The notes beneath the pieces were generated by a model. It was not told the origin of the DNA and did not search any database. It saw nothing but the letters and a program-made list of their open reading frames with translations. Below are positions 51,047-64,000 of a stretch of DNA of 64,000 nucleotides, piece by piece. Origin of the DNA: Azomonas agilis (lineage in GTDB: Bacteria; Pseudomonadota; Gammaproteobacteria; Pseudomonadales; Pseudomonadaceae); contig NZ_VLKG01000007.1 of assembly GCF_007830255.1 (NCBI RefSeq), positions 62,001 to 126,000 on the forward strand. Direction: 5' to 3'. Within the stretch, counting starts at the first letter, position 1. Each line of letters starts with the position of its first letter. The position numbers and the translations under genes are program-made.

Positions 51047-52168
51047 ATGGCTAACCGTGCGTACAAATACCGTTTCTACCCAACACCTGAGCAGGCTCAA
51101 TTACTGGCCCAGACGTTCGGCTGTACGCGCTTCGTTTATAACCATGTTCTGCGCTGGCGAACCGATGCGTTCTTCCAGCAGCGGGAGAAGGTCGGGTATC
51201 TGCAAGCCAATGCCGAACTCACCCGGATCAAGCGATCCGGTGAGTTTCCGTGGCTGAATGAGGTCTCCTGCGTCCCCTTGCAGCAGTGTCTTCGCCACCA
51301 GCAGGCGGCCTTCAAGAACTTCTTTGCAGGTCGCACGAAGTACCCGGTGTTCAAAAGCAAGAAACATCGGCAATCAGCTGAGTTCACCCGGTCGGCGTTT
51401 AGTTATCGGGACGGTCAGCTCTATATGGCCAAATCCAAAGTGGCTCTGAATATCCGCTGGAGTCGCCCACTTCCGTGCGAGCCTTCTACTGTTACGATTT
51501 CGAAGGACAGGGCGGGACGTTACTTCGTGTCCTGTCTGTGTGCGTTTGAACCCGAGGCCCTGCCCGTCACGCCGAACATGATCGGTATTGATCTGGGCCT
51601 GAAAGACCTGTTCGTCACCAGCGAGGGTGAACGCTTCGGTAATCCCCACCATACAGCTAAATACGCCAGCCGCTTGGCCAAGGCGCAGCGCCGACTCAGC
51701 CGTAAAAAGCTGGGTTCTGCCAACCGTGCTAAGGCTAGGCTGAAGGTCGCGCGTATTCACGCAAAAATCTCCGATGGCCGATTGGATCGCTTGCACAAGC
51801 TGTCCCGCAGACTGATTAACGAGAACCAAGTGGTCTGTGTCGAATCCCTTGCCGTGAAGAACCTGATCCGCAATCCGAAACTGAGCAAGGCTATTGCCGA
51901 TGCGGGCTGGGGCGAATTAGTGCGCCAAATCCAGTACAAAGGCGAATGGGCTGGACGGCAAGTTGTGCAGATCGACCGTTGGTATCCTAGCTCGAAGCGT
52001 TGCTCCTGCTGCGGGCATACGCTTGAGCACTTGCCTTTGGATGTGCGTAGATGGGACTGCTCGGAATGCGGAGCCGAACACGACCGCGATATAAATGCCG
52101 CGCTCAACATTAAAGCCGCCGGGCTGGCGGTGTTAGCCCTTGGAGAGCATGTAAGTGGCATCGGTTAA
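51047..52168 (+). CDS. tnpB: TnpB RNA-guided endonuclease (IS605 OrfB family)
   Basis: A 373-residue TnpB. The RuvC acidic triad is intact: Asp182 in GIDLGLKDLF, Glu266 in VVCVESLAV, Asp348 in HDRDINAALNI. A zinc ribbon uses Cys319/Cys322 and Cys338/Cys341 (CSCCG ... CSECG). The N-terminus MANRAYKYRFYPTPEQ is standard. TnpB proteins of this family cut DNA guided by an RNA (omega RNA) from the right end of their element. Because all key residues are present, this copy may be active. Confidence 0.92.
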   Translation: MANRAYKYRFYPTPEQAQLLAQTFGCTRFVYNHVLRWRTDAFFQQREKVGYLQANAELTRIKRSGEFPWLNEVSCVPLQQCLRHQQAAFKNFFAGRTKYPVFKSKKHRQSAEFTRSAFSYRDGQLYMAKSKVALNIRWSRPLPCEPSTVTISKDRAGRYFVSCLCAFEPEALPVTPNMIGIDLGLKDLFVTSEGERFGNPHHTAKYASRLAKAQRRLSRKKLGSANRAKARLKVARIHAKISDGRLDRLHKLSRRLINENQVVCVESLAVKNLIRNPKLSKAIADAGWGELVRQIQYKGEWAGRQVVQIDRWYPSSKRCSCCGHTLEHLPLDVRRWDCSECGAEHDRDINAALNIKAAGLAVLALGEHVSGIG

Positions 52169-53687: not shown

Positions 53688-54650
53688 ATGAATCCATTCA
53701 ACGGCTGGCTGGCGGCTAGCCTGCTCGGTATCGCTTTGGCGTTTGGCGGCACTGCGTCAGCACAAACCCTGATTGTCGGCGATCAGAGCTTTAATAACCG
53801 CACTGTGATGGAGGCGGCGGGGGTTCTGGAAGGACTGCCCTACACTCTGGAATGGAAGCAATTTACCGCCGGCTCCCCCGTAGCCGAAGCCCTGAACGTG
53901 GGCAGCTTAGACATTGGCTTTTTGGGCGATGCGCCGCCGCTGTTTTTAGGCGCTTTGGGCGCGCCGATTAAGGTAATTGGCATCAGCCGTCAGGATTTGG
54001 ACGGTGTGGCTATTTTAGTGCGCAAGGATTCGCCGATCCAAAAACTCTCCGATCTGCGCGGTAAAAGTGCCGCCATCTGGAAAGGCTCTTGGAGTCAGCA
54101 ACTGCTGTTCACCGCCTTAGCTAAGGAAGGCATTGCCCCTTCAGAACTGGACTTACGCTATCTGGGCGCGCTGGATGCGTCCCATGCCTTGGAAGGCGGA
54201 TCGGTGGATGTGATCGCCACCTGGGAGCCCTATGTCACACAGCAGGAGCTGAGCGGCGCACGGGTGCTGGCTACCGCCAAGGGACTGATCCCCGCCCAGA
54301 GTTTTTTAGTGGCTACGGATAAGGCCATTGCTACTAAGCATGCCCTGTTGGGGGATTTTCTCCAGCGCCTGTACAAAGCCCGCGAATGGGCCCAGCAGCC
54401 GGGTAACAGTGAGCGTTATGCCAAGGCGTGGGTGGAGTTGACCAAAGCTGATGCCGAAGTCGCCCGCCGTTGGTTTGCCCGCGCCGCTATTCGCCTTGAG
54501 CCCATCAGCGATCAAAACATCAGCGAAGCTCAACAAACCGTCGATTTTTTCCACAGCATTAATCTGGTCAAAGGCTATCAGGCCCGCACCCTGTTTGACC
54601 CTTCGTTTAACCAGTATTTGCCCGCCACTAATCCTCAAGCTGCACGCTAA
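53688..54650 (+). CDS. Periplasmic sulfonate-type binding protein 1
   Basis: A 320-residue exported protein (signal peptide ending ASAQ, about residue 26) of the SsuA/NMT1 family: LIVGDQSFNNRTVMEAAGVLEGLPYTLEW, SLDIGFLGDAPPLFLGAL, and VIATWEPYVTQQELSGARVL. Such proteins deliver alkanesulfonates or related compounds to an ABC importer. It is the first of four similar proteins in the operon and lies three bases after a short leader ORF. Confidence 0.87.
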   Translation: MNPFNGWLAASLLGIALAFGGTASAQTLIVGDQSFNNRTVMEAAGVLEGLPYTLEWKQFTAGSPVAEALNVGSLDIGFLGDAPPLFLGALGAPIKVIGISRQDLDGVAILVRKDSPIQKLSDLRGKSAAIWKGSWSQQLLFTALAKEGIAPSELDLRYLGALDASHALEGGSVDVIATWEPYVTQQELSGARVLATAKGLIPAQSFLVATDKAIATKHALLGDFLQRLYKAREWAQQPGNSERYAKAWVELTKADAEVARRWFARAAIRLEPISDQNISEAQQTVDFFHSINLVKGYQARTLFDPSFNQYLPATNPQAAR

Positions 54651-54667
54651 GACGCAAGGAGTTGCCC

Positions 54668-55441
54668 GTGAACGCCCTTACCCAAATCCAGCCCGTTAAA
54701 GACCGCGTGACCCCGGAAGAATGGGAAGCCCGAGTCAAGTTAGCCGCCGCCTACCGTTTGGCCGCCTTAGAAGGCTGGACCGATCACATCTACACCCATT
54801 TCTCCATCCGTGTGCCCGGCCCGGATCGGCATTTTCTGATCAATCCCTATGGCCTGACCTTTGACGAAATCACCGCCTCCAGCTTGGTGAAGGTGGACAT
54901 TAACGGAGACCTAGTGGACGACCCCAGCGGTTTAGGCATCAACCCGGCGGGATTTGTGATTCACAGCGCCATCCACCGTGCCCGTGAACATACTCATGCC
55001 GTGCTGCACACCCACACCACCGCTGGGATTGCGGTTTCTGCGCAGAAAGAAGGGCTGCTGGCTATCTCCCAACACGCCGCACGCTTCTACAAACGCTTGG
55101 CTTACCACGATTACGAAGGCATTGCCCTAGAGCTGGACGAACAACAGCGCCTGATTGCCGATATCGGCGATAAGGATGCGTTGGTGTTGCGCAACCACGG
55201 CCTGCTGACTTCCGGTCGCACCATTGAAGAAGCCTTCTATAACCTGTTCTTCCTCGAACGGGCCAGCGCTGCCCAAATCGCCGCCCAAGCCGGTGGTGCA
55301 GAGCTGATCATCCTCTCCGATGCAGTGGCCGAGAAAGCCGCCCGAGGCTTCGAAAAGGCTGTGGCCAGCGAGCGTCCCAAGCTGCATTGGGATGCGGCGG
55401 TGCGCCGTTTAGAGCGCCTCGACCCCAGCTACGCCCACTAA
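54668..55441 (+). CDS. Class II aldolase/adducin family protein
   Basis: A 257-residue protein of the class II aldolase fold. Metal-binding histidines are visible in AVLHTHTTAGIAVSA and LRNHGLLTSG, with an N-terminal GWTDHIYTHFSIRVPG. Members are aldolases, epimerases or decarboxylases of phosphorylated or hydroxy acids. GTG 54668 is chosen because AAGGAG lies six bases upstream; a TTG at 54662 is too close to it. Lying between two binding-protein genes, it may process a carbon skeleton left after desulfonation, which is inference. Confidence 0.83.
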   Translation: MNALTQIQPVKDRVTPEEWEARVKLAAAYRLAALEGWTDHIYTHFSIRVPGPDRHFLINPYGLTFDEITASSLVKVDINGDLVDDPSGLGINPAGFVIHSAIHRAREHTHAVLHTHTTAGIAVSAQKEGLLAISQHAARFYKRLAYHDYEGIALELDEQQRLIADIGDKDALVLRNHGLLTSGRTIEEAFYNLFFLERASAAQIAAQAGGAELIILSDAVAEKAARGFEKAVASERPKLHWDAAVRRLERLDPSYAH

Positions 55442-55453
55442 TCGGAGGCCCGC

Positions 55454-56401
55454 ATGAAGGCTCAATTTGGCTGGCTGGCTTTAGTGGCGCTGTTGCACAG
55501 TGGTTTTGCAAGTGCAGCGGAGCCCATTACCCTGCGGGTGGCTGACCAAAAGGGCAACATGCGGGCGCAATTGGAAGCGGCGGGGGCACTCAAGGAGGAG
55601 CTGCCCTACAAGATTCATTGGGCCGAGTTTCCTGCTGCCGCACCCTTGGCCGAAGCCCTAAACGCAGGGGCGGTGGACATCGGCATCATTGGGGACGCGC
55701 CACTGCTGTTTGCCCTAGCAGCGGGTGCGCCCTTAAAAGCCATTGCGGTGAATAAATCCGATCCCTACGGCACCGCGCTGTTGGTGGTGTCGGAAAGCCC
55801 GTTAAAAAATGCAGCGGATTTGAAAGGCAAACGCATTGCCACCGGACGCGGTTCCATCGGTCATCTGGTGGCCTTAAAGGCTTTAGAGCAAGCCGGTTTG
55901 ACCGAGCAGGACGTGGAGTTTCGTTTCCTTGGCCCGGTGGATGCCAAAACTGCTTTGAATAACGGCTCGGTGGACGTTTGGTCAACTTGGGAGCCTTACA
56001 CGGCCTTGGTGGAAACCAGCCAGCAAGGGCGCGTGTTGGTCAACGGGCGTGGCTTGTGGGCCGGCAATAGTTTTATCGCCGCCACCCGCTCAGCGCTGGA
56101 AGATCCAGCCAAGCGCCAAGCCATTCAAGATTATCTGTACCGCCTGAGCGCCGCTCAAAAGTGGGCCTATCAGCATCTGGACAGCTACGCCAAAACCTTG
56201 GCCCAGATTATCGGCTTCCCGGAACAGGCCGCGCGGCTGTCCTTTGAGCGCCGTGCTTTGCATTGGCAGCAAGTGGATGATCCGGCCTTGATCCGCCAGC
56301 AACAAAGCACCGCCGATTTTTATCAGGCCCACGGCTTATTGGCTCAGCCCTTGGACGTCAGCAGCACCTTTGATCCCAGTTTTCAGATTGAGCGCCCCTA
56401 A
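55454..56401 (+). CDS. Periplasmic sulfonate-type binding protein 2
   Basis: A 315-residue exported protein (signal peptide ending ASAAEP, about residue 22) of the SsuA family: LRVADQKGNMRAQLEAAGALKEELPYKIHW, AVDIGIIGDAPLLFALAAG, VDVWSTWEPYTALVE. It differs from binding proteins 1 and 3 in the ligand loop (KGNMRAQ instead of SFNNRTV or NYYNVRA), suggesting another substrate. It follows the aldolase gene by twelve bases. Confidence 0.86.
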   Translation: MKAQFGWLALVALLHSGFASAAEPITLRVADQKGNMRAQLEAAGALKEELPYKIHWAEFPAAAPLAEALNAGAVDIGIIGDAPLLFALAAGAPLKAIAVNKSDPYGTALLVVSESPLKNAADLKGKRIATGRGSIGHLVALKALEQAGLTEQDVEFRFLGPVDAKTALNNGSVDVWSTWEPYTALVETSQQGRVLVNGRGLWAGNSFIAATRSALEDPAKRQAIQDYLYRLSAAQKWAYQHLDSYAKTLAQIIGFPEQAARLSFERRALHWQQVDDPALIRQQQSTADFYQAHGLLAQPLDVSSTFDPSFQIERP

Positions 56402-56434
56402 GCGTTCTCCCCTTATTAATGCACTGGAGCTTTC

Positions 56435-57382
56435 ATGAGTTTCTCGCGTGTTTTGCGCCTTGGTTTGACCAGTTTGTTATTTGCCGCGCCTCTGATTCAG
56501 GCCGCAGAGCCGGTGGTGCTACGCATCGGCGATCAAAATTACTACAACGTGCGCGCCTCGGTGGAAGCTTCCGGCGTGTTGGAAGGTGCGCCCTATCAGG
56601 TGGACTGGAAGCACTTTCAATCCGCCGCCCCAGTTGCGGAAGGTTTGGAAGCCGGAGCCTTAGATTTAGGCTTTCTGGGCGATTCTGGGTTTATTTTTCT
56701 GGCGGCTAAAGGCGCGGCGGTGAAGCTGATCGGCGTTTCGCGTCAGAACCCAGACACCATTGCCCTGTTAGTGCCCAAAGACTCACCCGCCAAAAGCATT
56801 GAGGACTTAAAGGGCAAAAAAGTCGCCTATTGGCCCGGTGCTTGGAGCCAGCAGTTGACCCTGCGCGCCTTGGAAAAAGCCGGACTGCCTCGCGACTACG
56901 TGCAGTTCGTCAAACTGATGCCGATTGATGCCGCTGCCGCATTACCCCAAGGCAGCATTGATGCCTTTCCGGTGTGGGAGCCCTACATTTCGCAGCAGAT
57001 TCTGTTCTCCGGTGCGCGCCCGATTTTGACCGCCCGCAACCTGATGCCGGGGCTGTCCAGCATTGCCGCCAATGCCAAATCCTTGGAGCCTAAACGAGCG
57101 GCCATCAGCGACTTTCTAGGCCGTCTGCAAAAAGCCCGCGCTTGGGTCGAGGCCAATAAAGAAGCCTACGCCGATCTCTGGGCCAAAAAAGCCAACCTCG
57201 ATCAAGCCGTGTCTCGGCACTGGATTGGCCACGCCAATATGACGGTCGGCCCAGTGGATGAATCGGCGGCTAAGGACTACCAAGGCACGGCGGACTTTTT
57301 GACCGAAACCGGCGCGCTGCCCAAGGCGTTCAAGGTCAGTGAAGTCATCGACACTTCCTTTAACTCCGCCTTTCAGCCCTAA
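56435..57382 (+). CDS. Periplasmic sulfonate-type binding protein 3
   Basis: A 315-residue exported protein (signal peptide ending QAAEP) of the SsuA family: LRIGDQNYYNVRASVEASGVLEGAPYQVDW, LDLGFLGDSGFIFLAAKG, WPGAWSQQLTLRALEKAGL and DAFPVWEPYISQQILFSGA. It is closest by eye to binding protein 1 (both share SWSQQL/AWSQQL and WEPY). It lies 33 bases after protein 2 and 12 before protein 4. Confidence 0.86.
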   Translation: MSFSRVLRLGLTSLLFAAPLIQAAEPVVLRIGDQNYYNVRASVEASGVLEGAPYQVDWKHFQSAAPVAEGLEAGALDLGFLGDSGFIFLAAKGAAVKLIGVSRQNPDTIALLVPKDSPAKSIEDLKGKKVAYWPGAWSQQLTLRALEKAGLPRDYVQFVKLMPIDAAAALPQGSIDAFPVWEPYISQQILFSGARPILTARNLMPGLSSIAANAKSLEPKRAAISDFLGRLQKARAWVEANKEAYADLWAKKANLDQAVSRHWIGHANMTVGPVDESAAKDYQGTADFLTETGALPKAFKVSEVIDTSFNSAFQP

Positions 57383-57394
57383 GGAAGCGCCGCC

Positions 57395-58408
57395 ATGAGA
57401 CTGCTTGCCCTCGCCACCCTCGCACTGGGACTCAGCTTCAACGCACAGGCCGCCGATGCTTTGCGCCTCGGTTATCTGCCCAGCACCGGCCACGCTAAAT
57501 TCTTCATCGCCAAGGAGCAAAATTTCTTCGCCCAAGAAGGGCTGGAGGTGCAGATGCTGGAGTTCGTCAACTCAGCGGACGGCCTGAACGCCATCATCGC
57601 CGACAAAATCGACATCGGTGCGTTTGGTACGACCGGCCCCTTGGTGCACATCGCCAAGGGCACGCCGCTGAAAATCATCGGCGGCATTGCCGGTGAGGAT
57701 GCCTCGCTGATTGCTAAACCAGAGCAGGCGGAAAAAATCCGTCAAATCAACGACCTCAAAGGCTTAAAAGTCGCCACTGTACGCATGGCTACCGGCGATG
57801 CGGTGGTGCGTAATGCCTTGCACCGCAGCGGACTGGATTGGAAAAAAGACGTAGAACTGTTCGAACTGAAAAGCCCACCTGCCGTGATTGAGGCGGTGAA
57901 ATCCGGCCAAGTGGATGTAGGCGTGGTGTGGGGGCCCCATGATTTGCGCGCCGAGGCCCAAGGCTTAAAAGTGGTGATCCGCTCCAGCGAATTGGAGCCG
58001 GGACACACTTGCTGCCGCTTGGTCGTTACCAGCCAGAAGTTGGCGGCAGAGCCCCAAGTGTGGGCCAAATTCCTGCGCGCCATTCTGCGGGCGGAGAAGT
58101 TCGCCAGCGAGCAGCGCGAAGCCACGCTGGATGCCCTCGCCAAATACGTAAAATTAGATCGGGAGCTGCTGGCTGCCGCCTATTACCAACCGCATTTAGA
58201 TCAAAGCAGCGATCCCAACCTCAAAGGCGTACAGTCCTTTTGGGAGGGCATGCAGGCCAGCGGTTTCGTCACCGCCGGTGGGGATATTCGCCAATCCGTA
58301 GACGTGAATATCTACGCCCAAGTGCTGGATCAACTAGCCAGCGAAAACCCCAACGATCCGTTCTGGAAAAAATTACAAACCGAATACCAGCGCAAGGACG
58401 TGCTATGA
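57395..58408 (+). CDS. Periplasmic binding protein 4, TauA/NMT1 type
   Basis: A 337-residue exported protein (signal peptide ending NAQAAD). It is more distant from the other three: LRLGYLPSTGHAKFFIAKEQNFFAQEGLEVQMLEF, KIDIGAFGTTGPLVHIAKGTPLKIIGG, and VVWGPHDLRAEAQGLKVV. An adjacent Cys pair occurs in EPGHTCCRLVV near residue 210. Its stop overlaps the ATPase gene by four bases (ATGA), so of the four it is the one most tightly linked to the transporter. Confidence 0.87.
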   Translation: MRLLALATLALGLSFNAQAADALRLGYLPSTGHAKFFIAKEQNFFAQEGLEVQMLEFVNSADGLNAIIADKIDIGAFGTTGPLVHIAKGTPLKIIGGIAGEDASLIAKPEQAEKIRQINDLKGLKVATVRMATGDAVVRNALHRSGLDWKKDVELFELKSPPAVIEAVKSGQVDVGVVWGPHDLRAEAQGLKVVIRSSELEPGHTCCRLVVTSQKLAAEPQVWAKFLRAILRAEKFASEQREATLDALAKYVKLDRELLAAAYYQPHLDQSSDPNLKGVQSFWEGMQASGFVTAGGDIRQSVDVNIYAQVLDQLASENPNDPFWKKLQTEYQRKDVL

Positions 58409-59208
58409 GCGGCCTCCACCTGCATGAGCTGAGTTTGAACTATGGCGCACAACCCATTTTAGAGCGCCTGAATCTGGAGATTCCCGAAGGGCAACTGGTA
58501 TCCATTTTGGGGGCCAGCGGCTCGGGTAAATCCAGCTTGCTGCGCTTGGTGGCCGGATTACAGTCACCCAGCAGCGGCCATTTGTTGTGGCGCGGCCAGC
58601 CCATCACCGAACCCTCGCCGCAATGCGGGGTGGTGTTTCAGGATTACACCTTATTCCCCTGGTTGACCCTGCGCGAGAACGTCAGTTTGGCCCTGAGCCA
58701 AACCCAGCCCCAGTTGTCACGCGCTGAAGTGCGCCGCCAAGCCGATGGTTTTTTGGTTCAGGTGGGCTTGGGCGCGGCGAGCAAAAACTACCCCTTTGAA
58801 ATCTCCGGCGGCATGCAACAGCGCGGAGCTTTGGCGCGGGCCTTTGCCTTGGGGTCGCCGCTATTACTGCTGGATGAGCCCTTTGGCGCACTCGATCCGG
58901 TCAACCGCGCCCATCTACAGGATTTACTGGCTCGGGTTTGGCAAGCCTCTAAACCGGCCAAGACGGTGCTGTTTGTCACCCATGATGTAGACGAAGCCCT
59001 GTATTTGGGCGATCGAGTGGTGATTTTAGGCTCCAATCCCGGTCGGGTGATTGCTGATCTTAGCGTGCCTTTGGAGCGCCCGCGCAGTCGCCAGCGTTTG
59101 TTGGACAGCCCAGAATTCCATGCTTTGCGGGAACAGATTAACGATCGGCTGGCGGTGGAGATTCTGCGCGGCCTGAACAGCCAGTCCCAACTGGAGCCTA
59201 GCCCATGA
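58405..59208 (+). CDS. ABC transporter ATPase, taurine/sulfonate type
   Basis: A 267-residue ATPase of the TauB/SsuB group. Walker A is GASGSGKSSLL, Q-loop QDYTLFPWL, signature ISGGMQQRGALARA, Walker B LLLLDEPFGALD, and H-loop VTHDVDEAL. The longer frame opening at 58009 is out of the real gene; ATG 58405 overlaps the previous stop. It powers uptake through the next gene's permease. Confidence 0.93.
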   Translation: MSGLHLHELSLNYGAQPILERLNLEIPEGQLVSILGASGSGKSSLLRLVAGLQSPSSGHLLWRGQPITEPSPQCGVVFQDYTLFPWLTLRENVSLALSQTQPQLSRAEVRRQADGFLVQVGLGAASKNYPFEISGGMQQRGALARAFALGSPLLLLDEPFGALDPVNRAHLQDLLARVWQASKPAKTVLFVTHDVDEALYLGDRVVILGSNPGRVIADLSVPLERPRSRQRLLDSPEFHALREQINDRLAVEILRGLNSQSQLEPSP

Positions 59209-60008
59209 CCGATACCAGTCTCAGCACACCGCTGACCGCACCCGCCAAAACAAACGCCTTTTTCTGGCCTCAGCATTATGAAGCTTGGTTGCTGTGGCCC
59301 GTTCTGCTGCTGGTTTGGCAATTGCTCAGCCAGTACCTGCCCTTGGGTGTGAATCCGCTGATTCCCTCGCCTTGGGTGACTTTCCAAGCGCTGCACGATT
59401 CTTGGCCGGAGTTATGGCAAGGCACTCTGTCCTCCTTGGGGATTTTGCTGCCCGGTTTTGCCTTGGCGCTGCTGTTGGGTACAGTTTTGGGGCTTTGGGT
59501 CGGTTCTAAGGAGCGAGCGGGGCGCATCTGGTTACCCTTTGCCCGCGTGGTCGCTCCTGTACCGCCCACGGTGTACATCCCCTATGCGATTGCGATTTTG
59601 CCCAGCTTTTTGGTCTCGGCGATCTTTGTGGTGTTCATCGGAGCTTTTTGGCCGATCTTCCAAAGCGCGGTAGCGGGAGCCCATGCGCTGGATCGACGCT
59701 ATCGGGATAATGCGCGGGCCTTGGGTTTACGCGGCTGGCGTTATTGGCGGTTGGTGCTGTTACCGGCAGCCTTACCGCATCTGTTTTCTGGTATGGGCGT
59801 GGGGCTAGGGTTTGCCTTTATCCTGCTCACCGTAGCGGAGCTGTTTGGAGCTAACGCGGGATTAGGCCGCTTTGTGCAGTATTACGCCGATTTTGCCGAT
59901 TATCCGCGCATGGTGGCTGGAATTCTCTACACGGGATTGATCACCTTCCTCAGCATGTCCTTGCTGGAAGCGGTGCGCCAGCGTCTGTTGTTTTGGGTGC
60001 GCCGCTGA
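59205..60008 (+). CDS. ABC transporter permease, taurine/sulfonate type
   Basis: A 267-residue inner-membrane protein of the TauC/SsuC group with about six helices. The cytoplasmic EAA loop contains AVAGAHALDRRYRDNARALGLRG. It overlaps the ATPase gene (ATGA) and the thioredoxin-like gene (TGATG). It is the only permease seen for the four binding proteins in this window. Confidence 0.91.
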   Translation: MTDTSLSTPLTAPAKTNAFFWPQHYEAWLLWPVLLLVWQLLSQYLPLGVNPLIPSPWVTFQALHDSWPELWQGTLSSLGILLPGFALALLLGTVLGLWVGSKERAGRIWLPFARVVAPVPPTVYIPYAIAILPSFLVSAIFVVFIGAFWPIFQSAVAGAHALDRRYRDNARALGLRGWRYWRLVLLPAALPHLFSGMGVGLGFAFILLTVAELFGANAGLGRFVQYYADFADYPRMVAGILYTGLITFLSMSLLEAVRQRLLFWVRR

Positions 60009-60499
60009 TGAAGCAGATTCTGTTATCTCTGGGATTAATTCTGTGCGCGGTGCCGGTTTCAGCCGCCCTGTTTAGTGAGCACACAGCGGATTTAGCCGCC
60101 CTTCAGCAACAGGCGGTCAGCCAAGGTAAACGCTTGGTGGTGGCCTTTGAATTGACGGATTGCCTCCAGTGCCAGCACATGCGCGATCAGGTGTTTGGGC
60201 AGGCGGCGGTTGAAGCGGCTTATCAGCCCTATTACCGCAGCGCGCCCGTGCTGTTGGATGATCTGAGACCGCTGCAAACGCCGGACGGTCAGCAGCGCAC
60301 TGCCGCTGAATGGGCTAAAACGCTGGGTGTGGTGGGGACACCGGCTTTTGTGTTTTTTGACGCTCAGGGTCAGTTAGAGACCCGTTATCAGGGCGTACTC
60401 AGTGCAGAGGATTTGATCCGTTTGGGTCGGTATGTACAGCACGTGGAGTACGAACAGCATCCCTTTCGTGCTCAGGCCAGTGCGGCTCATCAGCATTAA
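60008..60499 (+). CDS. Exported thioredoxin-like CxxC protein
   Basis: A 163-residue protein with signal peptide (MKQILLSLGLILCAVPVSAA) and a thioredoxin fold. The redox motif CLQC is at residues 52-55 in ELTDCLQCQHMRD, and the cis-Pro is in GVVGTPAFVFFDAQG (Pro112). A His-rich tail (SAAHQH) ends it. It resembles SoxW/thioredoxin-related periplasmic proteins. Its start overlaps the permease stop, so it is part of the importer operon. Role unknown: reduction of a periplasmic disulphide or of the Cys-containing binding protein 4 are possibilities. Confidence 0.82.
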   Translation: MKQILLSLGLILCAVPVSAALFSEHTADLAALQQQAVSQGKRLVVAFELTDCLQCQHMRDQVFGQAAVEAAYQPYYRSAPVLLDDLRPLQTPDGQQRTAAEWAKTLGVVGTPAFVFFDAQGQLETRYQGVLSAEDLIRLGRYVQHVEYEQHPFRAQASAAHQH

Positions 60500-60508
60500 T
60501 TTCTAGCT

Positions 60509-60567
60509 ACCCGAGGTTAACCATCGGGCACCTATTATTTTGGGCAGGTTTACCGGCACGCCACACG
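60509..60567 (+). promoter_or_regulatory. Leader motif copy A (candidate structured RNA)
   Basis: This region shares three blocks with 63539-63600: 22 bases at 60509-60530 (three differences), 13 at 60542-60554 (two differences), and 10 at 60558-60567 (one difference). Block one folds as CCCGA-(GGTTAACCA)-TCGGG. Blocks two and three frame a second stem: CCGG (60553-60556) with CCGG (60570-60573) and CG with CG around CCACA. It lies in the gap after the thioredoxin-like gene and upstream of the first TctC-type gene. Confidence 0.6.
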
Positions 60568-60584
60568 CTCCGGCTTCCCGCTGT

Positions 60585-60608
60585 ATGGATGGATTTTGCA
60601 GCACATGA
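60585..60608 (+). CDS. Candidate very short ORF coupled to the TctC-type gene
   Basis: ATG 60585 reads MDGFCST and stops at TGA 60606-60608, overlapping the ATG of the next gene (ATGA). The same frame extends upstream without a stop to a TTG at 60540, giving 22 residues with two Cys. No good Shine-Dalgarno is seen for either start, so this is tentative. Confidence 0.25.
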   Translation: MDGFCST

Positions 60609-61606
60609 GTATTTCTAAACGGCTGAGCGCCCGCCTGTTTCCGGTATTGGTCGCCAGTGTTCTTAGCACGACTTTTATCTTGCCCAGTGCTCAGGCACAA
60701 ACGGCTGAGGCTTGGCCGACTAAACCCATTAAGTACGTGGTGCCTTGGCCACCGGGCGGCCCGACCGACACCTTTGGGCGCACCATTGCCGCTGAATTGT
60801 CAAACATTCTCGGCCAGCCGGTGGTAGTGGAGAACAAGCCCGGTGCTACCGGAGCCATTGGCGCTCAGACCGTAGCCCGCAGCGCTCCCGATGGCTATAC
60901 CTTGCTGGCACCTAACACTACAGCCTTTATCGGCAACGTGGTGGCCAGTCCCAAAACCGCTAATTTTGATCCTTTGAAGGACTTCATTCCCATCGGCTTG
61001 TTTGTCGAGTCTTCTGTGGTGCTCTGGGCTCAGGTATCTACCGGCATCAAAACCTTTGACGAGCTGCTCAAGCGCGCGCGGGATGCAGGCAAAGAGCCGA
61101 TTTCTTTTGGTACTACCGGCAGCGGTTCCGTCTCTGAGCAATCGGTGGAGCAACTAGCGCGCCACTTCAAACTGAATTTGCTCAAGGTGCCCTATCAGGG
61201 TACTGCACCGCAGGTAGCGGATTTGGTGGCTGGGCACGTCAACATCGGCACGGCGGATTACCCGATTGCCAGCGGACATTACACCAAGGGCACGCTGGTT
61301 CCCTTGCTGGTCATTGGTAAGCATCGCCTGCCGGAATTGCCTAATGTGCCCACCAATTACGAATTAGGCATTAAAGAGCCTGACTTCACCATCTGGAACG
61401 GCCTGTTTGCGCCTGCCGGAACACCTGCGCCCATTGTAGAAAAACTGCGTAAAGCCACGGAGCAAGCCGCCCATAGCGAAGCCTTCCGTAAAATTGCTGA
61501 GGGGCAGGGTAATCGGGTGATCTTCCAAACGGGTGAGGAAGCCAGTGCGCGTTTGAAAGAAGAGTTTGACAGCCGTACCCGTTTCCAAGACAGCAACCGC
61601 CAGTAG
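60605..61606 (+). CDS. TctC-type (Bug family) periplasmic binding protein 1
   Basis: A 333-residue exported binding protein (signal peptide ending SAQAQ). The Bug-family pattern is clear: WPTKPIKYVVPWPPGGPTD then RTIAAELSNILGQPVVVENKPGATG, and VPYQGTAPQVADLVAGHVNIGT. These proteins normally serve tripartite TctAB transporters or signalling. No tctA or tctB lies in this window. TTG 60596 is an alternative start. The gene has a structured leader and is followed by a close paralogue. Confidence 0.88.
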   Translation: MSISKRLSARLFPVLVASVLSTTFILPSAQAQTAEAWPTKPIKYVVPWPPGGPTDTFGRTIAAELSNILGQPVVVENKPGATGAIGAQTVARSAPDGYTLLAPNTTAFIGNVVASPKTANFDPLKDFIPIGLFVESSVVLWAQVSTGIKTFDELLKRARDAGKEPISFGTTGSGSVSEQSVEQLARHFKLNLLKVPYQGTAPQVADLVAGHVNIGTADYPIASGHYTKGTLVPLLVIGKHRLPELPNVPTNYELGIKEPDFTIWNGLFAPAGTPAPIVEKLRKATEQAAHSEAFRKIAEGQGNRVIFQTGEEASARLKEEFDSRTRFQDSNRQ

Positions 61607-61618
61607 GGGATGGGATCT

Positions 61619-62629
61619 ATGTTCTTATCTCGACTGTCCCGAATGGCGACTTGGATGGCTGCCCTGATGGGCGCATTGCTGACGGGACTGACCTCAGTGG
61701 CTGTACAAGCCGCTGAGCCTTGGCCGACTAAGCCGATTAAATACGTGGTGCCTTGGCCTGCCGGTGGCCCGACCGATACCTTTGGCCGGGTGATTGCTGC
61801 TGAGCTTTCCGCTCAGCTCGGCCAGCCGGTGGTGGTGGAGAATAAACCCGGTGCTACCGGCTCCATCGCCACTCAGTTTGTGGCCCGCAGTGCGCCTGAT
61901 GGTTACACCCTGTTGGCTCCTAACTCCATTTCCTTTATCGGCAATGTGGTAGCAGCCCCAGAAATGGCCAACTTTGACCCCATCAAAGATTTCACGCCCA
62001 TCGGTATTTTTGTGGAGTCGGCGATCATCCTCTGGGCTCATCAATCCAGCGGCATCAAGACCTTTGAGGATTTTTTAGCCCGCACCCGTGACAGCAAGGC
62101 CAAGCCCGTCACGCTGGCTACCACCGGCAATGGCACGGTGTCTGAGCTGTTTGTGGACTTGTTAGCCCAGCATTACCGCACTCGTTTGAACCTGACCAAA
62201 GTGCCCTACAAAGGCACCGCGCCTCAAGTCGCTGATTTAGCAGCGGGCCATGTAGAGGCGGGGGGCACGGATTACGCCACCGCCAGCGGTCACTACGCCG
62301 CCGGAACCCTGATTCCGCTGTTGGTGATCGGCAAACAGCGTTTACCGGAGTTGCCCAACATTCCTACCAGCATCGAGTTAGGTATTGAGGGGCCGGACTT
62401 CAGCATTTGGAACGGCTTGGTGGCCCCAGCGGGTACGCCCGCAGAGGTTGTGGCGCGGTTGCGGGAAGCTACCGCCAAAGCAGCGCGCACTGAAGCTTTT
62501 CTAAAGGTGGCACAGGGCAATGGCAATCGGGTGATTTTCCAGACGGGAGCGGAAGCCAGCGCCCGCTTTAAACAGGAGCTTGAGAGCCGCCAGCGCTTTC
62601 AACAGGCCCTGAACAACAATCCACTCTAA
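61619..62629 (+). CDS. TctC-type (Bug family) periplasmic binding protein 2
   Basis: A 336-residue exported binding protein, clearly a tandem paralogue of the preceding one: WPTKPIKYVVPWPAGGPTD and GQPVVVENKPGATGSIATQF, then VPYKGTAPQVADLAAGHVEAGGTDYATASGHY. ATG 61619 is preferred because AGGGG at 61605-61609 is nine bases upstream; ATG 61610 is too close. It lies 12 bases after its paralogue and 17 before the dioxygenase gene. Confidence 0.88.
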   Translation: MFLSRLSRMATWMAALMGALLTGLTSVAVQAAEPWPTKPIKYVVPWPAGGPTDTFGRVIAAELSAQLGQPVVVENKPGATGSIATQFVARSAPDGYTLLAPNSISFIGNVVAAPEMANFDPIKDFTPIGIFVESAIILWAHQSSGIKTFEDFLARTRDSKAKPVTLATTGNGTVSELFVDLLAQHYRTRLNLTKVPYKGTAPQVADLAAGHVEAGGTDYATASGHYAAGTLIPLLVIGKQRLPELPNIPTSIELGIEGPDFSIWNGLVAPAGTPAEVVARLREATAKAARTEAFLKVAQGNGNRVIFQTGAEASARFKQELESRQRFQQALNNNPL

Positions 62630-62646
62630 CCCTAGGAGATCCATCC

Positions 62647-63510
62647 ATGTCACAAGCAGCCTTTGCCCACAGCCAATACCCTGAATTTTTGCGTTTGCAG
62701 ATCGAGCCTTACAGTCCGCACATTGGCGCGGTAATCCGTAATCTGGATCTTTCCGCCGCTTTGGACGAAACCACGGCGGCTGAGCTGAGCTTGGCCTTAG
62801 CCCACTATCAGGTGTTGTTTTTTCGGGATCAGCAGCTAACGCCTGCGCAACAGGTGGAAGTGGCCCGTGTGTTCGGTCAGCCGGAGAAGGCCAAGGCCTA
62901 TTTCCCGCGCAGTGCCGAACATGATCTGGTGGAGGTCATTGAATCTCGTCCCGATGGCCCGCGTTACACCACCGAGCAATGGCATTCGGACGTTAGCTAT
63001 TTGGCCAGCCCTCCGGCGGGTGCAGTGCTGCATGCGCAGGTGTTGCCCCCCAGTGGCGGCGATACCCTATGGTCGTCGGGACATGCGGTATTTGAGAGTT
63101 TACCCGGTGGTTTAGCCAAGGATTTGGAGCGCTTAACCGCCATTCACAGCATTGAAAAAAGTGGTTGGGGCGCGGTATTGCGGGCGCAGCCGGACGGGGA
63201 TCGCCGCTATCAGCAAATCCTCAGTGAGCAGCCACCGCGCCGCCATGCGCTGGTGCAAACCCATCCGGTCACGGGGCGTAAATTCATCTTTGCCAATCCC
63301 AAATACACCGCCTCTTTGGAAGGCTTATCGCGCCAAGACAGCGATGATTTGCTGAAGTTGTTATTCGCCCGTTTTGAGCGCCACGAGTTTCAAGCCCGTT
63401 TGCGTTGGGAGCTGGGCACGGTAGCCATTTGGGACAACCTGACCACCGTACATGCCGCTGTCGCGGATTATCAGCCCGCTGTGCGCCGGATGCATCGCGT
63501 CACCTTTTAA
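62647..63510 (+). CDS. TauD/TfdA-family 2-oxoglutarate dioxygenase
   Basis: A 287-residue Fe(II)/2-oxoglutarate oxygenase. The iron ligands are His113 and Asp115 (EQWHSDVSYLA) and His269 (NLTTVHAAVADY); the Arg of MHRVTF binds 2-oxoglutarate. Relatives release sulfite from taurine (TauD) or sulfate from alkyl sulfates (AtsK). Given the neighbours, an organosulfur substrate is likely but its identity cannot be told. It lies 17 bases after the second TctC gene. Confidence 0.9.
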   Translation: MSQAAFAHSQYPEFLRLQIEPYSPHIGAVIRNLDLSAALDETTAAELSLALAHYQVLFFRDQQLTPAQQVEVARVFGQPEKAKAYFPRSAEHDLVEVIESRPDGPRYTTEQWHSDVSYLASPPAGAVLHAQVLPPSGGDTLWSSGHAVFESLPGGLAKDLERLTAIHSIEKSGWGAVLRAQPDGDRRYQQILSEQPPRRHALVQTHPVTGRKFIFANPKYTASLEGLSRQDSDDLLKLLFARFERHEFQARLRWELGTVAIWDNLTTVHAAVADYQPAVRRMHRVTF

Positions 63511-63538
63511 TCCTCAGCGCTATTTTTGTGCAGCCATA

Positions 63539-63600
63539 ACCTGAGGCTAACCATCGGGTAAGGCGTTTTCGTATGGAGCAGGTCTACCAAACGCCAGACG
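63539..63600 (+). promoter_or_regulatory. Leader motif copy B (candidate structured RNA)
   Basis: This copy matches 60509-60567 in three blocks (63539-63560, 63576-63588, 63591-63600). Stem one is ACCTGA (63539-63544) with TCGGGT (63554-63559), where C-G in copy A becomes T-G here. Stem two pairs CCAAACG (63587-63593) with CGTTTTGG (63599-63606), against CCGG/CCGG in copy A, with loops CCAGA and CCACA. It lies in the leader of the acyl-CoA dehydrogenase-like gene. Confidence 0.6.
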
Positions 63601-63623
63601 TTTTGGCCCCTTGCTCGTACTAA
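63573..63623 (+). CDS. Candidate 16-residue leader peptide
   Basis: ATG 63573 opens MEQVYQTPDVLAPCSY, ending in TAA 63621-63623, fourteen bases before the next gene. TAAGG at 63559-63563 is a weak Shine-Dalgarno. It carries one Cys near its end, like the other short ORFs in this locus. The ORF overlaps leader motif copy B. Confidence 0.35.
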   Translation: MEQVYQTPDVLAPCSY

Positions 63624-63637
63624 CGGAAGACCTGTTC

Positions 63638-64000
63638 ATGACTATCCTGCGTTCTGTCGCAGTCGACACCCCCTCTGTTTTGGACAGAGCCCAGCAACTG
63701 GCAGAAACCCTCGCTCAAACCGCTGTAGAGCGGGACCGTCAAGGAGGACATGCGGCGTTGGAACGCCAATTGATCCGTGATTCGGGTCTGCTCAGCCTGA
63801 GTATTCCCAAGCGCTTCGGTGGGCCGGGAACGAGCTGGACGGAGATTCTACACACCGTCGCTATTCTGGCCGAAGCCGACAGCGCACTGGCCCACATCTA
63901 TGCCTTCCACCATATGCAGCATGCCAGCGTTCAGTTTTGGGGTACTGAAGAACAACAACAGCGGCTGTTGGGCGAGAGCCTGCGTTTAAACCAATTTTGG
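63638..64000 (+). CDS. Acyl-CoA dehydrogenase-fold flavoenzyme, SfnB/DszC-like, 5' part
   Basis: The frame starts at ATG 63638 with GGAAGA at 63625-63630 and runs open to the window end, giving 121 residues. It contains the acyl-CoA dehydrogenase N-terminal domain: RDSGLLSLSIPKRFGGPG, then SWTEILHTVAILAEADSALAHIYAFHHMQHASVQFWG. The SfnB/DszC branch consists of FMN-dependent oxygenases or dehydrogenases acting on organosulfur compounds and is often found with SsuD-like and TauD genes. The C-terminal catalytic part lies outside the window. Confidence 0.82.
   Translation, partial: MTILRSVAVDTPSVLDRAQQLAETLAQTAVERDRQGGHAALERQLIRDSGLLSLSIPKRFGGPGTSWTEILHTVAILAEADSALAHIYAFHHMQHASVQFWGTEEQQQRLLGESLRLNQFW

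Follow-up and report, generated by a model that had tools for sequence, protein, structure and literature searches.

A structured element of ~76 nt lies upstream of two genes in a sulfur gene cluster of Azomonas agilis and recurs at both orthologous sites in a congener. The element is real, conserved, structured and, to our knowledge, uncatalogued; it is most likely a cis-regulatory RNA. We describe its position, its two hairpins (P1 and P2) and its distribution, and weigh a sense RNA leader against a DNA operator and other explanations.

Position and gene context

The window, i.e., the whole analyzed stretch of 64,000 nt (positions 62,001 to 126,000 of contig NZ_VLKG01000007.1), holds two copies of the element, A and B. 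The genes of the sulfur cluster around both copies are all co-oriented:

60509..60583, + strand: copy A of the element; starts 9 nt after the stop of a thioredoxin-like gene
60605..61606, + strand: TctC family receptor 1 (Pfam PF03401, E 1.2e-52); first gene after copy A
61610..62629, + strand: TctC family receptor 2 (Pfam PF03401, E 1e-50)
62647..63510, + strand: TauD/TfdA family dioxygenase (Pfam PF02668, E 9.4e-64); does not reach the NCBIfam taurine dioxygenase cut-off
63539..63616, + strand: copy B of the element; starts 28 nt after the TauD stop
63638..64000, continuing beyond the window end, + strand: DszC/SfnB-like flavin monooxygenase; acyl-CoA dehydrogenase fold

The monooxygenase gene (63638..64000) matches the NCBIfam models for DszC (E 4.4e-100) and SfnB (E 1.5e-86), in each case short of the curated cut-off. 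Copies A and B stand at the head of two units, TctC-TctC-TauD and the DszC/SfnB-like monooxygenase, and the intergenic regions of the upstream sulfonate ABC unit gave no alignment comparable to the element. The ATG of TctC1 (60605) lies 22 nt after the end of the P2 hairpin of copy A, and that of the DszC/SfnB-like gene (63638) 21 nt after the end of copy B. Over the four copies known from two species, the distance from the end of P2 to the start codon is 15-22 nt (21-22 nt, and 15 in copy D), and the distance from the upstream stop to the element is variable (5 to 28 nt).

The tandem TctC-type receptor genes (60605-62629) are 69% identical, with no TctA/TctB permease gene seen adjoining them, and close relatives were found in one congener only (E ≤ 1e-60 in 57 relatives; E ≤ 1e-75 in 369 genomes of the class). 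At 53688-60008, four SsuA/NMT1-type SBP genes, assigned by sequence likeness (two of them HMM-tested), are located 5' of a single ABC ATPase and permease, with one of the four separated by a class II aldolase gene; this arrangement suggests a single transporter used by several binding proteins. An IS605-type OrfB/TnpB-like gene (51047-52168) is found directly upstream of the sulfur cluster. Genes encoding a TonB-dependent receptor, a further SsuA-like binding protein and a luciferase-family monooxygenase lie 3' of the DszC/SfnB-like gene (L065, 991-8036) and apparently extend the organosulfur locus.

Sequence and structure of the element

Copies A and B have three blocks in common and in the same order, ACCYGAGGYTAACCATCGGG, GCAGGTYTACC and ACGCCASACG, and their local alignment score is 37, with the next best alignments to unrelated window tiles at 29 and 31. 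An earlier note on this DNA, based on the sequence alone, had described two leaders with ordered common blocks; we find them at the places it gave, and the score is above that of any unrelated window tile. The starts that it assigned also hold, but the elements reach 60583 and 63616, past the proposed ends at 60567 and 63600-63606. The 3.28 Mb genome contains the P1 core, GAGGYTAACCATCGGG, just twice as an exact match, and with 3 mismatches allowed the matches are at background. The hairpins of the two copies are as follows:

60509..60528, + strand: copy A P1, CCCGAGG-UUAA-CC-(A)-UCGGG
60543..60582, + strand: copy A P2, outer helix P2a GGCaGG/CCcGCU, inner helix P2b CCGG/CCGG
63539..63558, + strand: copy B P1, CCUGAGG-CUAA-CC-(A)-UCGGG
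63577..63616, + strand: copy B P2, P2a GAGCAGG/CCUUGCUC, P2b CCAAACG/CGUUUUGG

Over the four copies (A and B, and C and D of the congener), P1 has 7 bp and the consensus CCYGRGG, loop NNAA, CC, a bulged A and YCGGG, and P2 is laid out as an outer helix (P2a), an internal loop and an inner helix (P2b). P2a is GGC-A-GG/CC-C-GCU in A, GGC-A-GG/CC-C-GCC in C, GAGCAGG/CCUUGCUC in B and GGACAGC/GCUGUCC in D, while P2b is CCGG/CCGG in A and C, CCAA..ACG/CGU..UUGG in B and a shifted GC-rich helix in D. Unpaired bases kept in all copies are the two A residues in the NNAA loop, the bulged A and a UYUW stretch. The earlier stems are present as described (CCCGA/TCGGG vs. CCTGA/TCGGG for the first, CCGG/CCGG vs. 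CCAA/TTGG for the second). The segment GGYTAACCA is likewise present in sequence, but it is better described as two more pairs (GG/CC) and the NNAA loop, with an A bulging from the 3' side.

Covariation

No leader is unusually stable on its own (z +0.3 to -1.8), and the case for structure is a comparative one, drawn from four sequences of two species. Over 21 pairs in the four copies, with helices that were partly picked after the sequences had been seen, 91.6% of the cells pair and 7 of the 21 pairs have changed on both sides, a result that none of 500 shuffles reached; this bears out the earlier reading of compensatory change rather than plain recent duplication. Three of the seven lie in P2a, the outer helix that the earlier two-stem description had overlooked. 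Slid controls gave 0-2 both-sides pairs, and pairing fell to 24-49% when the 3' side was slid. The alifold energy, relative to column shuffles, had z = -3.0 for the untrimmed alignment (A1) and -4.3 and -4.9 for trimmed alignments, the ends of which were chosen with P2a in mind. In a blind test, the structure derived from the TctC copies (A and C) fitted 35 of 38 cells of B and D in the trimmed alignment (slid, 9-19) and 40 of 48 in the untrimmed one. The element thus combines conserved secondary structure with compensatory change in a predicted mRNA leader, features by which riboswitches are recognized, with the caveat on strand given below.

Conservation in a congener and wider distribution

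Among three congeners, the TctC gene pair is present only in G003, which has the element at both orthologous sites, with copy C before TctC1 and copy D before the monooxygenase gene. Homologues beyond A. agilis therefore exist, in agreement with the earlier note. Cluster and element co-occur in the two species and a third congener, 99% complete, is without either; the element tracks the TctC-TctC-TauD-DszC-like cluster. Orthologous cluster proteins are 68-89% identical and their 4-fold sites only 33-52%, and the synonymous sites of adjacent orthologous genes are near saturation. Leader identity is 84% for A-C and 64% for B-D (P1, 90% and 80%; linker, about half to two thirds), and the strongly conserved block runs from the start of P1 to the end of P2. 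This conservation of the leaders despite near-saturated synonymous sites shows, at the level of sequence comparison, that the element is under selection.

A covariance model built from the four copies recovers all of them at E < 1e-15. No convincing match was obtained in congeners G001 and G002, and the extra matches in genomes sampled from the phylum (398), the order (304) and the class (274) were at chance level only, under strict search filters that could miss divergent members. Per-genome E-values of these extra matches equal chance for the numbers searched, and those inspected were mostly inside coding sequences, with none upstream of a comparable sulfur gene. The broad gammaproteobacterial spread for which the earlier note had proposed a search was thus not found with the model in ~1,000 sampled genomes. 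An exact pattern matched only the two species among 398 family genomes, and 45 exact P1-core matches among 84,980 genomes had no convincing P2 (best E 0.008). The element was also absent from 28 DszC/SfnB-like homologue loci (27 in other genera, 1 in congener G002) and from the plasmids and viral contigs searched. The element is of narrow distribution.

RNA leader or DNA operator

RNA is favored over a protein operator on the ground that the paired words are not the same in the copies of one genome, which is not predicted by a single DNA-binding specificity; since these copies change in step to different words, we argue for a folded single strand over duplex DNA. The main rival is a double-stranded DNA operator, in which the P1 inverted repeat CCCGA-N9-TCGGG would serve a dimeric regulator of internal promoters of both units and P2 would be a second imperfect site. 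We regard this as unlikely, though it deserves serious consideration: P1 is strongly conserved in sequence and near-palindromic, the position upstream of two related genes is common to both copies, and the preservation of pairing across the 21 pairs does not differ by strand (91.6% of cells on the + strand vs. 91.5% on the reverse complement), as duplex DNA would show. An operator accords poorly, however, with the P2 arms, which are separated by ~30 bp and, inside a single genome, change together to different sequences (CCGG/CCGG vs. CCAA/TTGG), with the asymmetric A in P1, which offsets its two dyads, and with a scan of 60300 to 63700, limited to sigma-70-like promoters, in which none was found. 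The earlier preference for RNA over a protein operator is favored by the differing paired words; the pair counts tie between strands.

Gene orientation and the near-constant distance between P2 and the start codon favor the + strand. We infer that the element acts as RNA on this strand, and rank a sense RNA first, an operator second and an antisense RNA last.

Control mechanism

We consider it rather probable that the sense RNA is a conserved cis-acting leader of two hairpins that controls the TctC-TctC-TauD and DszC/SfnB-like units jointly, acting on translation or on the mRNA, in response to a ligand or an RNA-binding protein. Joint control is proposed because those two units begin with the element and the sulfonate ABC unit upstream does not. 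Control is presumably exerted on translation and the signal may be a sulfur metabolite; the label ‘sulfur-responsive’ is a guess from gene context only. A lineage-restricted new riboswitch class, sensing an organosulfur compound or breakdown product and co-regulating an unusual TctC-TctC-TauD and DszC/SfnB-like uptake/desulfurization set, is a tentative suggestion.

As to intrinsic switch parts, no terminator was found at the elements. Copy B (63576-63637) has a 10-bp pairing, GAGCAGGUCU/AGACCUGUUC, between the 5' strand of P2a and the bases immediately 5' of the start codon (p = 0.001 vs. shuffles); alternative pairing of P2 with the Shine-Dalgarno region is strong in this copy only and was not supported as a common switch. 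A linker-Shine-Dalgarno helix that seemed persuasive when B and D were folded was no better than shuffles (Fisher p = 0.55) and was also rejected.

The hairpins could instead be processing or stability elements between cistrons of one operon, setting the relative amounts of segments without sensing. Their intercistronic location within a co-oriented gene array and the finding of no common switch are consistent with such a role, which we nevertheless think doubtful, as the conserved unpaired bases in all copies (the AA of NNAA, the bulged A, UYUW) suggest specific recognition. Less credible is a functional RNA of the minus strand (antisense or small RNA from both intergenic sites). In each of the four copies the minus strand gives the more stable P2, which drives a more stable consensus fold there (column-shuffle z -8.3 vs. 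-4.9), and A x C mismatches of the + strand turn into G-U on the minus strand; P1, however, is intact on the + strand (28 of 28 cells over four copies) and mismatched on the minus strand in B and C, the near-constant spacing to the downstream start codon agrees with a leader in sense orientation, and a minus-strand RNA would have to start from promoters within the downstream genes. A mobile or repetitive remnant (REP-like or IS200/IS605-type hairpin ends) around the TctC-TctC-TauD module, which would account for two same-orientation imperfect palindromes either side of a 3 kb module with an IS605-type OrfB-like gene ~8 kb upstream, is highly improbable, and a REP or IS element was rejected on copy number (only two per genome) and on conservation at orthologous positions in two species, where the sequence is kept despite near-saturated synonymous sites.

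Relation to known systems

At the gathering threshold, Rfam 15 found only a tRNA in the window, and copies A, B, C and D gave only chance matches at E up to 10. No Rfam family fits any copy, in line with the earlier impression that this is no known riboswitch class. The xanthine riboswitch (NMT1 motif RNA), the Rfam model of which matched no copy at E up to 10, is a small hairpin RNA of Proteobacteria with P2a and P2b that precedes dioxygenase and NMT1/tauA-type transporter genes and has almost no intrinsic terminators (PMC7373994). The present element is likewise a small hairpin element with P2a/P2b near similar genes, with no terminator found at its copies; unlike the NMT1 motif, which is described as a P1-P2 junction, it has a P1 that forms a closed hairpin of its own, with a linker after it. 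It also resembles the orphan structured-RNA motifs of Pseudomonas (e.g., gabT, rmf, gyrA and Pseudomon-groES; PMC2864571), the signals of which are mostly unknown, in being a small structured element confined to one bacterial group. It differs from them in its downstream genes, and those with Rfam models gave no match here. No description of a structured RNA associated with TctC, tauD or organosulfur genes was found in the open-access literature.

In such bacteria, the control of sulfur scavenging is generally attributed to protein regulators. CysB, Cbl and SfnR regulate sulfur-starvation genes (ssu, tau, sfn) by acting on DNA promoters. Their target gene class is the same as that of the element, from which they differ as proteins on DNA promoters. 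The two copies per genome provide a built-in internal control, and a structured leader common to two organosulfur units would add control at the RNA level and hint at the compound that these units handle.
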